From: a virus
Direction: 5' to 3' (one strand)
DNA length: 33,414 bases
Virus record (IMG/VR): IMGVR_UViG_3300022187_000117
Location: 1 to 33,414 of that record
Positions 18,142 to 22,810 of this stretch are shown here, one piece after another. Each line of letters opens with the position of its first letter. Within the stretch, counting starts at the first letter, position 1. The notes under the pieces were generated by a model that worked only from the letters and a program-made list of their open reading frames with translations, was not told the DNA's origin and ran no database searches. Position numbers and translations under genes: made by a program.

Positions 18142-18280
18142 GATACTTACCTTTGCCTCTTAATCTTCTTTTATGTTTGTTCATAGTAGATGTGATAGGT
18201 TTTCTACCGATAGAGGTACCTTTCTCAGTCTTAGTATATTCAACAGTTGCTCCAAAAATATTACCTTTCTTCTTTGACAT
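18125..18280 (-). CDS. Small basic protein, unknown function
   Basis: A 51-codon frame starts at ATG 18280 inside the end of the small-terminase-like gene (20-base overlap). It reads MSKKKGNIFGATVEYTKTEK, then GTSIGRKPITSTMNKHKRRL and a glycine/lysine/arginine-rich end. The composition is that of a disordered nucleic-acid-binding peptide. The tight overlap pattern on both sides supports a real gene; no family is recognised. Confidence 0.55.
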   Translation of the reverse strand: MSKKKGNIFGATVEYTKTEKGTSIGRKPITSTMNKHKRRLRGKGKYRGQGK

Positions 18281-18629
18281 CTTCTACTTGTGCTTCAATA
18301 ATTAATGGTAATGGTTCATTTATATTTTCATTAACAGTTCTATCTTTCATTCCTAAGTAGTTTTTACTTAACCAAATTTGCATTGGTGTATTATCTTTCT
18401 TAATAGCCTTATCAAACATTTTCTTTCTAAGACTTGCCTTACCTTTTTCTCTATTCTGGTCAATAATTTCGGCATAATTACGCCTTAATGTTCTAGCTGA
18501 TACACCCATAACAGATGCACATTCTTCTATAGTACAACCAATAGATGCTAAGTTTCCTAGTATTTTTACATCTACTTCTTTTTTAGGTCTTCCAATAGTT
18601 ATTAATTCTTTGCTGTTACTTTTGTCCAT
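18261..18629 (-). CDS. terS: Probable terminase small subunit
   Basis: The 122-residue protein begins MDKSNSKELITIGRPKKEVD. A helix-turn-helix follows at about residues 25-52 (NLASIGCTIEECASVMGVSA, then RTLRRNY), then a helical region KASLRKKMFDKAIK and the typical NTPMQIWLSKNYLGMKDR motif. This set of motifs is common in phage proteins annotated as small terminase, which recognise the packaging start site and hand DNA to the large subunit. It overlaps the ParB-fold gene by 14 bases. Large terminase is about 1.5 kb downstream in the same operon. A plain DNA-binding regulator is the alternative. Confidence 0.75.
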   Translation of the reverse strand: MDKSNSKELITIGRPKKEVDVKILGNLASIGCTIEECASVMGVSARTLRRNYAEIIDQNREKGKASLRKKMFDKAIKKDNTPMQIWLSKNYLGMKDRTVNENINEPLPLIIEAQVEDVKEER

Positions 18630-19233
18630 TTTTAGCCTCTACAATTAAATACTCAAATGCTTCACTATCATTCTTATAATCAGTTTGTTCAGCACACCAC
18701 TTGACCCAATCCTGCCACATTTGATATACTGCATCGTCAATTTTTATAGTTAATGTTTTAGTACCATCAGATTCTTTAGGTTCTTTTTGAGTAGGTTCTT
18801 CCCAATCAAAATTACCAAAATTAACTAAGTTATCTATCTCATCTGGTGTATCTGGTAATATGTCTTTTAAGGTATCAGTATCTATATCTGGTAGTACATC
18901 ATTCTTAATTAGATCACTAAATGCTTTCAAATCATCATCAAACCATACATGATTTCTTCGTCTAGCAATAATAATGGCTTTTGACTTCGGAATATCTCCA
19001 AAGTTTTCAACCTGAATTTGTTGCCATCCTATTCTTTTTAATGCTTCTAATCTATGGTTTCCATCTATAACTTCATACTTATCATTTAACTTTCTTACTG
19101 CTAGTATTCCAGCACTATCATCATATTTTATAGATTTTATTAACTTGTTTATCTGTTCTTCAGTACCATCTGTCTTATAATTCCATTCAGCTTTAACTAA
19201 ATTGTCTATGTTCATGGTTTCTACTTTATTCAT
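18616..19233 (-). CDS. ParB/Srx-fold protein, possible DpdA partner (DpdB-like)
   Basis: The 205-residue protein has a ParB-type N-terminal domain: NIDNLVKAEWNYKT, EEQINKLIKSIK, and the signature VIDGNHRLEALKRIGW, with G58-N-H-R61 as the nucleotide/catalytic loop. A linker and a C-terminal helical part (DAVYQMWQDWVKWCAEQ) follow. Proteins of this fold bind CTP or nick DNA. It is coupled to the DpdA gene by ATGA with a GGGAGCC site. In the bacterial dpd cluster a second gene, dpdB, helps DpdA insert the base, and to my recollection it is also ParB-like. Phages also often place a ParB-like gene beside terminase, so the partner could be packaging instead. Confidence 0.78.
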   Translation of the reverse strand: MNKVETMNIDNLVKAEWNYKTDGTEEQINKLIKSIKYDDSAGILAVRKLNDKYEVIDGNHRLEALKRIGWQQIQVENFGDIPKSKAIIIARRRNHVWFDDDLKAFSDLIKNDVLPDIDTDTLKDILPDTPDEIDNLVNFGNFDWEEPTQKEPKESDGTKTLTIKIDDAVYQMWQDWVKWCAEQTDYKNDSEAFEYLIVEAKNGQK

Positions 19234-20036
19234 TCTTGGCTCCCAGCATATTTTTTGTATTCCTGAAGTTTAAGGTAAGCCTCCCAATAGAATACATTAG
19301 TTGATTTACTTGAATCTTTAAATTCGTCAATTTTATTCTCTTTTAGTTTGTTTATATCGACTTTTTCCATGTTTGGCAAAGCCTTGGATCTAAAACTATT
19401 AAATCTGCTACCTGAAAACCAACTTGTACTATCACAACTGTAACAATATTGAAATTCTTTCATCATTTTTAACTCTGTGCAACCTAACAAATGTACTTTC
19501 TTACCTTTAGAAGTAGCTTTTTGACTTATGTATCTTGTTATCTTTAGTCTTTCAGCATTAGATACATTAAACCTTAACTCAGGAACTGATACAGCAATAT
19601 AATCTGAATAATCAATTAACTTATCTGGGTTTTCATCTTCTAAGTGATAAACATTTATAATTGGAACATTTACTTGAGTCTTAAATTTTTTTCTCATTTC
19701 CCAAGCAAACTCAGGCGAGATTTTCTTTTGAACATCACATTCTACTATTGAATGTTTGTATCCTGTTTTATTAACAAAGTTAGCATAATCATCTTGCCAT
19801 TCAATAATCATTTGTTCTGTTAAAACTGTATGGCTTTTTGCACCAAACATTAATGTAAATAGACCTGAATCTATAATAGTATGAGTATAACTATTAAGAC
19901 ACTTAATAAAATCAATAGCATGTTGGTCTTTGTATCTTCTTATTTGATAAAAACTTCCAAGAACATAATTTACTCCAGCTTTCTTTAATGGCTTAGACAT
20001 TCCTACATCTTCATGCCCAGCAAAATGAACTTTCAT
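19230..20036 (-). CDS. dpdA: DpdA-type DNA guanine transglycosylase
   Basis: The 268-residue protein belongs, by its motifs, to the phage DpdA branch of the tRNA-guanine transglycosylase family, which swaps guanine in DNA for a 7-deazaguanine. Motifs in order are the start HFAGHEDV, IIDSGLFTL with D56 (general base/recognition), VECDVQ with D101, INVYHLED with H131, AVSVPELR, KVHLLGCTE near 180-188, and CYSCDSTSW with D202 as likely nucleophile. It is much shorter than bacterial DpdA, as phage forms are. Whether it replaces some or all guanines cannot be read. It overlaps the 47-residue gene by TAATG and the ParB gene by ATGA. Confidence 0.88.
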   Translation of the reverse strand: MKVHFAGHEDVGMSKPLKKAGVNYVLGSFYQIRRYKDQHAIDFIKCLNSYTHTIIDSGLFTLMFGAKSHTVLTEQMIIEWQDDYANFVNKTGYKHSIVECDVQKKISPEFAWEMRKKFKTQVNVPIINVYHLEDENPDKLIDYSDYIAVSVPELRFNVSNAERLKITRYISQKATSKGKKVHLLGCTELKMMKEFQYCYSCDSTSWFSGSRFNSFRSKALPNMEKVDINKLKENKIDEFKDSSKSTNVFYWEAYLKLQEYKKYAGSQE

Positions 20037-20179
20037 TACTTATGTTTTTTTTGTACAGTAAAACTAGCTTTTTTTACTGCTCCCTTATGTGGTTTGTATG
20101 CTCCTTTCATTAGTTTGAAACCTTTACCTGACTTCATCCAATGAAAACCTCTAGGTGCTGAAACTGTTTTCTTAACCAT
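20036..20179 (-). CDS. Small basic protein in the modification island
   Basis: A 47-codon frame starts at ATG 20179, two bases after the T-fold gene's stop, and ends as TAATG with the DpdA start. It reads MVKKTVSAPRGFHWMKSGKG, then FKLMKGAYKPHKGAVKKASF and a basic end. APRGFHWMKSGKGFKLMK is a pattern seen in small proteins of other marine phages. It is strongly basic, so DNA binding is plausible. Its tight coupling to DpdA suggests co-function, which is inference. Confidence 0.6.
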   Translation of the reverse strand: MVKKTVSAPRGFHWMKSGKGFKLMKGAYKPHKGAVKKASFTVQKKHK

Positions 20180-20181
20180 AA

Positions 20182-20526
20182 TTAAACCTCGTACTGATAA
20201 ACTACTGATCCGTTTTCATTATCTTCAAAAACAGAACATTTTTCTAAATCATACTCTTTTACTAATTCTTTTGCAATCATTTCACAAGACATATCTCCAA
20301 ACTTACAACATTCACTATCTGCATACTTATCATGTAAATAATCTAAAATTTCTCTTTTGAATCTTATAAATTCAACATCTCTATCATCATGGTTAACTTT
20401 TTTTTCACATTCTATATGAAAGATATGTCTATGAGGGTCCTTTAAAAATTTAACATCTTCATATGGACATTTTGACCATTGATGAATACCTTCTACTTGT
20501 AATTTACAAACTATTGTTGTTTTCAT
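20182..20526 (-). CDS. Small T-fold (QueD-like) protein with full zinc triad; candidate 7-deazaguanine-tailoring enzyme
   Basis: The 114-residue protein follows the layout of QueD/6-pyruvoyltetrahydropterin synthase. VEGIHQW gives His15, and PHRHIFHI gives His32 and His34. These three match the zinc triad (H16, H31, H33 in E. coli QueD). Then come EFIRFK (QueD DF..LK), SCEMIAKELV with E82 (QueD TSE.LA), and a terminal VFEDNENGSVVYQ with E101 in the substrate-glutamate position. The QueD catalytic cysteine position is not conserved; Cys20 lies elsewhere. It is coupled by ATGA to the PRT-FolE gene and precedes DpdA, so a step between CDG and DNA insertion, or a replacement QueD activity, is likely. 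The exact reaction is unknown. Confidence 0.7.
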   Translation of the reverse strand: MKTTIVCKLQVEGIHQWSKCPYEDVKFLKDPHRHIFHIECEKKVNHDDRDVEFIRFKREILDYLHDKYADSECCKFGDMSCEMIAKELVKEYDLEKCSVFEDNENGSVVYQYEV

Positions 20527-21371
20527 TTACACAATCTATGAAATTCGTTTTTAACTTCTGCTGATTTAAACAAACCTCTTATTGCTGAAGTTATCATAGT
20601 AGAGTTTTTCTTTTGAACTCCTCTGCAAACCATACAAAAATGTTTAGCTTCTATAATAACTCCACATCCTAAAGGATTCATTACTTTCATCATTCCATCA
20701 GCTATTTGATTTGTTAATCTTTCTTGGATCTGCATTCTTCTTGCATACACTTCTAACAATCTTGATAATTTAGAAAGTCCTACAACATTTGCTCTTGGAA
20801 TATATGCAATATGTGCTTTTCCAAAAAATGGTAGCATATGATGTTCGCAAGTAGAGTAAAATTCAATATCCTTAGATATAATCATTTCATCGTAATCAAC
20901 ATTAAAACTAGTTTTTAATACTTCTTCAGGTGTTTGATTGTAACCACCATAAATAGTTTTCCATGACTTAACTACTCTTTTAGGTGTATCTATTATTCCC
21001 TCTCTTAAAGGATTGTCTCCTAAATGTTCAATCATTTTAGCTACTGTATGTTCAGCGTCTTCTTCAGCTTGTTCCCAAGGAAATACAATATAGCCATCAT
21101 ATTTACTTCCAATTTGTTTATCTACTACTGTTAAAAATCTAGCTTTTGGAAAATTTTCTGTATGGAGTTTTTTGGTTCTACCACTATCAACTATATCATC
21201 TACAATAACAGTTGCTTTGTTTGGATCATGTGTTTTTTTGCATTCTAAAAAATTTGAAACAATCATTCCGCCTTTTGGAATACCAAAAACTATATCATCT
21301 GGTGTTATCTTGTCCTGGACAGGAATTAGAAGTTCAAAAAAGTCATCCCAACTCAAATATTTTTTAATCAT
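20523..21371 (-). CDS. folE: Phosphoribosyltransferase-GTP cyclohydrolase I fusion
   Basis: The 282-residue protein has two parts. Residues 1-100 are a small phosphoribosyltransferase-like domain with FGIPKGGMIVS and the PRPP-binding loop TVIVDDIVDSGRT (54-66, D58/D59). Residues about 101-282 are GTP cyclohydrolase I: TPKRVVKSW, zinc ligands C175 and H178 in YSTCEHHMLPF, the core VVGLSKLSRLLEVYARR, and HFCMVCRGV with H244 and zinc ligand C246. FolE turns GTP into dihydroneopterin triphosphate, the first step to 7-deazaguanines. The PRT domain may salvage or hydrolyse a base or nucleotide, or channel purine; its substrate is unknown. It overlaps QueD by 8 bases and the T-fold gene by ATGA. Confidence 0.92.
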   Translation of the reverse strand: MIKKYLSWDDFFELLIPVQDKITPDDIVFGIPKGGMIVSNFLECKKTHDPNKATVIVDDIVDSGRTKKLHTENFPKARFLTVVDKQIGSKYDGYIVFPWEQAEEDAEHTVAKMIEHLGDNPLREGIIDTPKRVVKSWKTIYGGYNQTPEEVLKTSFNVDYDEMIISKDIEFYSTCEHHMLPFFGKAHIAYIPRANVVGLSKLSRLLEVYARRMQIQERLTNQIADGMMKVMNPLGCGVIIEAKHFCMVCRGVQKKNSTMITSAIRGLFKSAEVKNEFHRLCK

Positions 21372-21810
21372 TTATATATATTGCTGAATTTCCTGAATGT
21401 TCTCTTACTTCAACTGACATTAACTTAACTCGTTCATTACTATTAACTTCTATCGTAGTAGCTATTTGTTTGCAAATATATTCTGCAAATTTTTCACAAC
21501 CAACGTGAGGAATAATTCTAAGTTGTATTAAACCTTTTTCTTCTAATTCTTTAAATGTTTCTAGTTCTGGGTCATCTTCTGCTACTACAGTTTTATGATC
21601 AAAAGTTTCTTCTAAAAATTCTTTTACAAATTTTAGATCCCCAAAGTCATAAACCCAATTTCTATCGTTTAACATTCCTTTAAAATTTAATCTTACTGAT
21701 AAAGCATAACCATGAATATATTTACAATGACTATGTTTTGCTCTCCATTGTCGGAACGCACAAGATAATCCAATACTGTGATTGTAAGTTTTAGTTGAAA
21801 TATAGCTCAT
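21364..21810 (-). CDS. queD: QueD-like 6-carboxytetrahydropterin synthase homologue with altered zinc site
   Basis: The 148-residue T-fold protein has catalytic residues matching E. coli QueD: Cys29 (HSHCKYIHGY), Asp71-His72 (TFDHKTV) and Glu137 (VEVREHSG), plus DFGDLK at 55-60. Of the three zinc ligands only His33 is kept. The first (usual AH) is Phe19 in LSCAFRQW, and the third (usual HGH) is Tyr35 in HGYAL. His26 and His28 nearby could substitute. The role inferred from context is conversion of FolE product to 6-carboxytetrahydropterin. It is coupled to QueE by ATGA. The changed site may mean a different metal geometry or a shifted reaction. Confidence 0.82.
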   Translation of the reverse strand: MSYISTKTYNHSIGLSCAFRQWRAKHSHCKYIHGYALSVRLNFKGMLNDRNWVYDFGDLKFVKEFLEETFDHKTVVAEDDPELETFKELEEKGLIQLRIIPHVGCEKFAEYICKQIATTIEVNSNERVKLMSVEVREHSGNSAIYIND

Positions 21811-22424
21811 TTAACATTTATAATTTTATGAGTTTGTAAACTTAATTTATACTCTTGGTTGTCCTTTATCAAAGATAAACAGTTTTGTAAAGACTTAGCG
21901 TGTTCGTTATATTCTGGTTGCAAGTACTTATATCCATTAAAGTTCTTTAAATGTTCTTTATAAAAGTCTAATTCATTCCCCTCAGAAATAACTAACTTAA
22001 ATTCATTTGCTCGTCTCCAAAAGCCTTGTAATACAGGAAATTTAGGACTTATATGTTGTTTTGGCGAAAGTGTTACAAATACTTCATCAGATATAGGTTG
22101 CCAATAACTTCCCGATGTTTCAATACTAACTTTTCTTCCTGTTTTAATTATTTCATTACAAAGTTCAGGTAAATTTTTATTAATAAATGGTTCGCCACCA
22201 CTTATAACTACAAGATCAGATTTAAGTTCAGCAATAAGTTCTTCTATAGTTTTTTTATGTTTTTTAATTTTTTTGTTATAATAATCTCCATCTGGTTCAT
22301 ATCCTGTATCACAAAAATAACATCCAACAGGACATCCATAAGTTCTTATAAAATCACAAGCAGTACCGGTATGATAACCCTCTCCTTGTAAAGTTTCTTG
22401 AAAAGTTTCATGTATATTTATCAT
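21807..22424 (-). CDS. queE: 7-carboxy-7-deazaguanine synthase, radical SAM
   Basis: The 205-residue protein has the radical SAM CxxxCxxC cluster motif at C31, C35 and C38 (YGCPVGCYFCDT), a QGEG start at 13-16, an SGGEPF SAM-binding motif near 75-80, SIETSG, TLSPKQHISPKF, QPEY and a C-terminal SLQTHKIINV. This is the full QueE set. It contracts 6-carboxytetrahydropterin to 7-carboxy-7-deazaguanine using SAM, Mg2+ and a 4Fe-4S cluster. It is the first recognised gene of the modification island and is coupled to QueD by ATGA. Its end product would be CDG, as no QueC follows in the window. Confidence 0.95.
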   Translation of the reverse strand: MINIHETFQETLQGEGYHTGTACDFIRTYGCPVGCYFCDTGYEPDGDYYNKKIKKHKKTIEELIAELKSDLVVISGGEPFINKNLPELCNEIIKTGRKVSIETSGSYWQPISDEVFVTLSPKQHISPKFPVLQGFWRRANEFKLVISEGNELDFYKEHLKNFNGYKYLQPEYNEHAKSLQNCLSLIKDNQEYKLSLQTHKIINVK

Positions 22425-22425
22425 A

Positions 22426-22692
22426 TTAAATTTTTTCCATCTTTATAATGCAACCTTTAGGAAACACATTACAATCTGAAAATTCTTCTTCCTTGTTATC
22501 ATATGTGCAAAATGTATGCACAAACTTTTTACTATTATTAAAAATAAATGCAAATGTTGTTTTTGAAGCTGGTTCCATGTTAATTAATCCATCATAACTT
22601 CTATGTCCAGCATCCCCAAAAATATCAACCCAAGTAATTTTATATAGAAAGTATTTTTTTTTGTTAACTATTATACTATTGTTTTGTTTCAT
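22426..22692 (-). CDS. Conserved small phage protein before the modification island, unknown function
   Basis: The frame is open from a TTG at 22704, but the first ATG (22692) is more likely, giving 88 residues. These begin MKQNNSIIVNKKKYFLYKIT, followed by WVDIFGDAGHRSYDGLINME and, near the end, a CNVFPKGCIIKM segment with two cysteines. The W.DI.GDAGH..Y....NMEP pattern looks like a conserved small domain of marine phages. It ends one base before the QueE start, so it may be in the same transcript and could be part of the island or of the early operon. I do not know its role. Confidence 0.65.
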   Translation of the reverse strand: MKQNNSIIVNKKKYFLYKITWVDIFGDAGHRSYDGLINMEPASKTTFAFIFNNSKKFVHTFCTYDNKEEEFSDCNVFPKGCIIKMEKI

Positions 22693-22810
22693 TTTGACTT
22701 TCAACTAATGCTTTGTAAAATTCTAATTGTGTTTTAAGTATTTTATTTTCTAGAGATAGATTGATAAGCCTTGTCCTTAAATATTTAAAAATTCTTAAAA
22801 AATTTTTCAT
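22676..22810 (-). CDS. Small helical protein, unknown function
   Basis: A 44-codon frame overlaps the previous stop by ATGA (22807-22810) and ends 17 bases inside the next gene. It reads MKNFLRIFKYLRTRLINLSL, then ENKILKTQLEFYKALVESQN. A basic amphipathic helix followed by a short coiled coil suggests membrane association or oligomerisation. The overlap pattern supports it. Confidence 0.5.
   Translation of the reverse strand: MKNFLRIFKYLRTRLINLSLENKILKTQLEFYKALVESQNETKQ

Follow-up and report, generated by a model that had tools for sequence, protein, structure and literature searches.

A putative cassette for 7-deazaguanine modification of DNA in a SAR11-type phage, with a small T-fold protein proposed in place of QueC

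The stretch considered here, referred to as the window, is the whole of the virus record IMGVR_UViG_3300022187_000117, 33,414 bases of a possibly incomplete genome. On its minus strand, at positions 18616-22424, lies a block of seven open reading frames (ORFs) with which the phage very probably replaces guanine in its DNA by a base of the 7-deazaguanine type, a small zinc-type enzyme standing in for QueC. The reading that we favour, and hold to be reasonably probable, is that the block is a self-contained DNA-modification cassette of a SAR11-type phage, in which a protein of the tunnelling fold (T-fold) decarboxylates 7-carboxy-7-deazaguanine (CDG), so that the final base is 7-deazaguanine in DNA (dDG). 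In the proposed pathway, FolE, QueD, and QueE would convert GTP to CDG, the T-fold protein, acting instead of QueC, would most likely remove the carboxyl group to give 7-deazaguanine, and DpdA, with a ParB-fold partner, would exchange guanine in phage DNA for this product. Since the T-fold protein most likely decarboxylates CDG, dDG is the best prediction, and CDG itself in DNA (dCDG) is less likely.

The three base-making genes of phage 7-deazaguanine systems, FolE, QueD, and QueE, are all present, FolE being fused to a phosphoribosyltransferase (PRT) domain, and the DpdA transglycosylase is encoded in the same block. The QueE protein matches the NCBIfam QueE model at an expectation value (E) of 2.7e-32, which is below that model's curated cut-off, and the QueD protein is 41-47% identical to those of phages ACP17 and phiST. 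An initial annotation of this DNA had stated that FolE, QueD, and QueE together yield CDG, and the family matches support this prediction. It had also reported QueC as missing; indeed, none was found in the record, nor in 10 other records with a DpdA or T-fold protein of the window's type (six related contigs and four isolates). When contigs were searched whole, QueC exceeded its cut-off in 0 of 50 T-fold contigs and was present in 23 of 50 QueD contigs. A system that places preQ0 in DNA (dPreQ0) comprises FolE, QueD, QueE, QueC, and DpdA; of these, QueC is absent from the record, from its relatives, and from the likely hosts.

SAR11 bacteria are the likely hosts, since the structural genes of the window resemble those of the Pelagibacter phages HTVC111P, HTVC026P, HTVC202P, and HTVC112P (75-78% nucleotide identity). 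The hosts were surveyed in 40 SAR11 genomes (L090-L167), picked up with a 16S probe sequence. None exceeds the cut-off of the QueC equivalog model TIGR00364 (best score 35.9 bits, with 150.3 required), and none has QueD or another member of the 6-pyruvoyl-tetrahydropterin synthase (PTPS) family. The tRNA-guanine transglycosylase (TGT), on the other hand, is present in 30 of the genomes, which shows that most are sufficiently complete for the absence of QueC and QueD to be meaningful, and transporters of the Vut_1/YhhQ family occur in 35. With TGT and a YhhQ-type transporter present and QueD and QueC absent, SAR11 looks like a group that probably salvages queuosine precursors without synthesizing them de novo, and the phage would bring its own route to CDG into such a host. 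The initial annotation had called for a QueC search in the rest of the genome and in the host, and had allowed that a host QueC might be borrowed; with none over the cut-off in the 40 genomes, such a loan is excluded if the host is SAR11. Matches to PF06508, which might have pointed to a host QueC, do occur in 39 of the 40 genomes, but all are weak, none above 33 bits; most are short and lie in frames of 250-640 residues, as expected of other PP-loop enzymes.

The relationship between the T-fold protein and QueC was followed across viral loci, with at most 80 loci per search in three overlapping sets, QueD and T-fold ORFs being told apart by best score. Among the 80 loci fetched by QueD alone, 20 have only the T-fold gene, 42 only queC, 18 neither, and none both (Fisher p 9.5e-9, kinship ignored). 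The same holds for the 133 informative viral loci, that is, those with enough genes in view, where the T-fold gene is found in 87, queC in 41, neither in five, and both in none. In four of the five, the contig breaks off beside the cluster, and the fifth (L031) was mis-assigned, its T-fold being fused to another domain. The QueD tree calls for no fewer than 5-6 changes between T-fold and QueC on branches with good support, and no independent pair contradicts the exclusion.

The two genes also occupy the same slot. The order dpdA-queC-folE-queD-(prt)-queE of L217, L250, L280, and L240 recurs as dpdA-tfold-folE-queD-(prt)-queE in L212, L220, L241, L242, and L248, and the swap is seen again inside the window's own DpdA family, where L347, whose DpdA is 30% identical to that of the window, has queC, and L315 and L341 have the T-fold gene. 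Of the 60 loci in the DpdA set that have the T-fold gene, 52 also have the CDG genes; in the isolates phiST, MA9V-3, and ACP17, FolE, QueD, or QueE lies near it, and in phage Roos none of the three does. Because the T-fold protein and QueC are mutually exclusive and the former takes exactly the slot of the latter, we propose that the T-fold protein replaces QueC and acts on CDG in its stead. Since every fully visible pathway locus of the sample carries one or the other, CDG is very probably processed further. This role of the T-fold gene as a QueC replacement is new relative to the initial annotation.

What chemistry might this small protein perform? In QueD, three histidines bind zinc, a glutamate anchors the substrate, and a cysteine serves as nucleophile. 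The structural model of the T-fold protein (predicted local distance difference test, pLDDT, 93.9) has QueD structures as its best matches, E. coli QueD (4ntk/4ntm) among them (Z 12.4, root-mean-square deviation 2.2 over 106 residues). By sequence, its sole match in the PDB is the PTPS homologue 2dj6 (E 0.05), and a direct comparison of its profile with a three-row QueD alignment gives a weak match, so the kinship with QueD is taken from structure. Residues H15, H32, R33, H34, R49, E52, and E101 are invariant; the three histidines, invariant in 47 T-fold sequences, align with the H...HGH of 2dj6 as a zinc-type triad, and E101 aligns with the substrate-anchoring glutamate of QueD. (The invariance of an SCE motif in the alignment is partly an artefact of the search pattern and was not used as evidence.) Unlike QueD, however, the protein has neither a conserved cysteine nucleophile nor the Asp-His pair: there is no conserved cysteine at positions 16-31, one being found at position 20 in 18 of the 47 sequences. 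Given the lack of a conserved counterpart of the nucleophile, and since a separate QueD-family protein in the same operon covers the QueD step, the T-fold protein should not catalyse the QueD reaction. As regards QueF, none of the 47 members matches PF14489, structures with a QueF-like fold match less well than QueD (Z 8.5), and there is no QueC to supply preQ0. A decarboxylase would be well served by a pocket in which the guanine-like edge is held and a metal sits close to the 7-carboxyl group, and CDG decarboxylation is, from pattern of occurrence and modelled fold, the most likely function. Cui and co-workers, in 2023, reportedly gave the name DpdL to a predicted CDG decarboxylase and found both dDG and dCDG in phages; the T-fold protein of the window is probably this DpdL. 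Cellulophaga phage phiST was reportedly among the phages of that study.

The insertion step is assigned to DpdA. Its model (pLDDT 85) has TGT structures in all of the best 50 VIA-align rows (Z up to 16.7), and two aspartates, D56 (in DSG) and D202 (in DST/SSW), are invariant in 43 sequences; the 9g-like DpdA of phage JG054 has similar motifs at these points. The protein thus combines the TIM-barrel TGT fold and the two catalytic-type aspartates of the TGT/DpdA superfamily. The zinc site of tRNA TGTs, three cysteines and one histidine after the nucleophile, is missing, as no cysteine follows D202. The relationship is a distant one: the DpdA profile drew no sequence match from the PDB, and in plain Foldseek other TIM barrels came out on top, the kinship with TGT being seen only after realignment. 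In a tblastn search of 50,697 phage records, the sole relative was in Faecalibacterium phage Roos (34%), where it also adjoins a T-fold gene. In the window's DpdA family, 101 of the 121 loci have a ParB gene no more than 1.5 kb from dpdA; the same is seen in 0 of 70 phiST-type and 0 of 25 ACP17-type loci. Since DpdB of bacterial dpd islands is ParB-like (PMC12839542, PMC6392294), the ParB-fold protein is likely a helper in base insertion.

Several points weigh against dDG as the outcome. On supported branches, the pairs that are independent by descent are not numerous enough to reach significance (median p 0.125), and one T-fold locus (L089) carries, at a distance of several kb from the cluster, an ORF with a weak resemblance to QueC (21 bits, under the cut-off). 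Nine virus records, the complete phage Roos among them, have the T-fold gene and dpdA without QueE, and eight of these have YhhQ; in them the T-fold protein must use a host-made or imported precursor, which would be CDG only if the host makes CDG. Moreover, the decarboxylation is deduced from two things, exclusivity and fold, and the host solely from genome similarity.

The QueE-less phages lend some weight to a different product. With a substrate that may not always be phage-made CDG, the T-fold protein might convert CDG, or an imported precursor, into some other, so far undescribed 7-deazaguanine base. We consider this rather unlikely: CDG genes are the usual companions of the T-fold gene, as counted above, and the loss of CO2 requires no co-substrate gene, of which the window cassette has none. 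An elaborated version, which we regard as improbable, would make the T-fold protein a second, QueC-independent branch point that yields such a base from phage CDG or a YhhQ-imported precursor, with PRT-FolE closing a guanine-recycling loop. If true, each guanine expelled from DNA becomes the next modified base.

It is also conceivable that DpdA inserts CDG unprocessed and that the T-fold protein does another job, for example, aiding QueD or channelling substrate. The minimal CDG gene set is present without QueC, and dCDG is said to be a known phage base, detected by Cui and co-workers; on such grounds the initial annotation took dCDG as the most economical product. However, wherever the pathway is fully visible in the loci sampled, T-fold or QueC comes with it, the T-fold gene fills the queC slot, and a mere helper of QueD should co-occur with QueC, which the T-fold protein never does. 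We therefore find dCDG unlikely. The initial annotation rightly listed dDG among the candidates, as a tailored alternative; its placing of dDG below dCDG is to be reversed.

The PRT domain calls for separate comment. Residues 1-100 of the fusion form a minimal xanthine/guanine-PRT-like domain, followed at about 103-282 by GTP cyclohydrolase I. The best matches of the PRT profile are the purine PRT 1vdm (4.1e-22) and the E. coli xanthine-guanine PRT 1a95 (5.2e-17); the phosphoribosyl pyrophosphate motif VIVDDIVDSGRT is present, the 6-oxopurine-binding lysine K85 is shared by 90% or more of the 15 rows, and the flexible loop is missing from the fused form. The fusion was found in 44 ORFs of related loci, some being one contig entered twice. 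It, or a free PRT, is also carried by phages with QueC, JG054 and MMDA13 among them, and by 12 QueC loci; thus, its presence does not depend on the T-fold branch. Since the domain resembles guanine PRTs and is found in QueC phages too, we propose that it may recycle the guanine released by DpdA: each insertion would free one guanine, which a guanine PRT would turn into GMP and so return to the GTP pool that feeds FolE. An N-terminal minimal PRT of xanthine/guanine type is present in many phage proteins annotated merely as FolE, in QueC and T-fold systems alike (for example, L378:5902-6795 and L379:5902-6789).

In tubercidin synthesis, TubE is a CDG-specific PRT and TubF a UbiD decarboxylase (PMC6112128). 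By analogy, the PRT fused to FolE might make CDG ribotide, the modification then taking place at the nucleotide level. This is very unlikely, for the same fusion and free PRTs accompany QueC, the profile points to purine and xanthine-guanine PRTs, and DpdA, which needs a free base, sits in the same cassette. Least likely is the uptake of host-supplied preQ0 or preQ1 for insertion by DpdA, with FolE, QueD, and QueE serving another purpose: SAR11 with its TGT and YhhQ-type transporter probably does salvage such precursors, but the phage carries into a host without QueD and QueC three CDG enzymes that are useless for preQ0 without QueC, and these genes form one cassette with dpdA.

The window system, with dDG as its predicted product, can be set beside known ones. 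As in phages 9g, CAjan, and Rosebush (Hutinet 2019, PMC6884629), the base would be produced by FolE, QueD, and QueE and inserted by a DpdA with kinship to the 9g-like type; the window DpdA shares phrog_887 with that of JG054. In contrast to 9g-type systems, a T-fold protein takes the place of QueC, and the DpdA is shorter and distant from the 9g-like ones (hhalign probability 91%, 21% identity). The same T-fold family lies beside FolE, QueD, and QueE in phiST, which also has the CDG genes without QueC, although its DpdA belongs to another subfamily (phrog_20335). The tubercidin pathway likewise decarboxylates CDG to a 7-deazaguanine core, as we propose here, but by a ribotide route and a UbiD enzyme, whereas the window has a base-exchange enzyme and no UbiD. 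Bacterial dpd islands also have a ParB-fold protein next to DpdA; DpdB is a ParB-like protein with ATPase activity that DpdA requires, and the 205-residue protein of the window is compared with it by fold and gene linkage. The system offers a testable case in which one small protein would decide, in at least three subfamilies of DpdA, whether phage DNA modification follows the dPreQ0 or the dDG branch. It would also bring the de novo synthesis of 7-deazaguanine into a group of phages whose likely hosts, bacteria abundant in the ocean, are without it, and it suggests what the PRT part of many phage FolE proteins, hitherto unremarked, may do.

Two side observations concern related phages. In L294, L296, L298, L301, L307, L316, and Roos (L001:9885-10556), dpdA adjoins a YhhQ-type queuosine-precursor transporter gene with no synthesis genes in view; some of the DpdA and YhhQ phages have the T-fold gene and others do not, and they may import the base. 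In phiST-type clusters, a gene resembling P-loop nucleotide kinases (phrog_19196, with a weak guanylate kinase match) stands beside the T-fold gene and is sometimes fused to it (L002:8320-8799, L003:8342-8812, L031, L036, and L038); it may serve guanine recycling. The phiST cluster also has a MazG-like gene.

The seven tightly chained ORFs of the initial annotation were all recovered, with spacings of -4, -8, -4, +2, -1, and -4 bases (Table 1).

Table 1. Genes of the cassette and its two flanks in the window, with family matches (E values).
Feature	Coordinates	Strand	Length	Matches
Left flank: conserved pelagiphage gene, outside the pathway	22426..22704	-		46-48% identical homologues in three pelagiphages
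QueE-like radical SAM enzyme, CPH4 (6-carboxy-tetrahydropterin) to CDG	21807..22424	-	205 aa	phrog_2076 4.5e-33; Radical_SAM 4.4e-13
QueD-like CPH4 synthase, usual phage type	21364..21810	-	148 aa	phrog_2389 4.6e-41; PF01242 1.8e-18
PRT-FolE fusion	20523..21371	-	282 aa	PF01227 9.9e-70; TIGR00063 over cut-off
T-fold QueD paralogue, proposed CDG decarboxylase (DpdL-type)	20182..20526	-	114 aa	phrog_17812 3.5e-22
Basic protein	20036..20179	-	47 aa	ORF call
DpdA DNA guanine transglycosylase, short divergent subfamily lacking the Zn site	19230..20036	-	268 aa	phrog_887 1.2e-17
ParB-fold partner, possibly DpdB-like	18616..19233	-	205 aa	ParB_N 5.1e-6; phrog_723 1e-14
Right flank: terminase small subunit-like gene (TerS), outside the pathway	18261..18629	-		phrog_309 2.5e-9

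Precise edges mark the block as a cassette, since the homologues of both flanking genes directly adjoin, 4 bases apart as annotated, in HTVC111P, HTVC026P, and HTVC202P; the island boundaries drawn initially coincide with these edges. Neither these three phages nor HTVC112P, all related genomes with the same surroundings, has the cassette. The same DpdA (93-99% identity) is found in six IMG/VR contigs, in five of which the whole pathway block stands at the same place. The 47-residue gene, counted as part of the island from the outset, is present in the window and intact in L005, L006, and L008; it is not an essential part, since it is degenerate or missing in two close relatives (L012 and L013).

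HTVC112P has another insert just before TerS (L376:3474-5696), composed of a ParB gene, a DnaJ/SNF2-like gene, and an FkbM-type methyltransferase gene, its ParB being no close homologue of that of the window. Because of this second insert, the site before TerS may be a hotspot for DNA-modification cargo. In HTVC111P, a putative DNA cytosine methyltransferase gene lies nearby.

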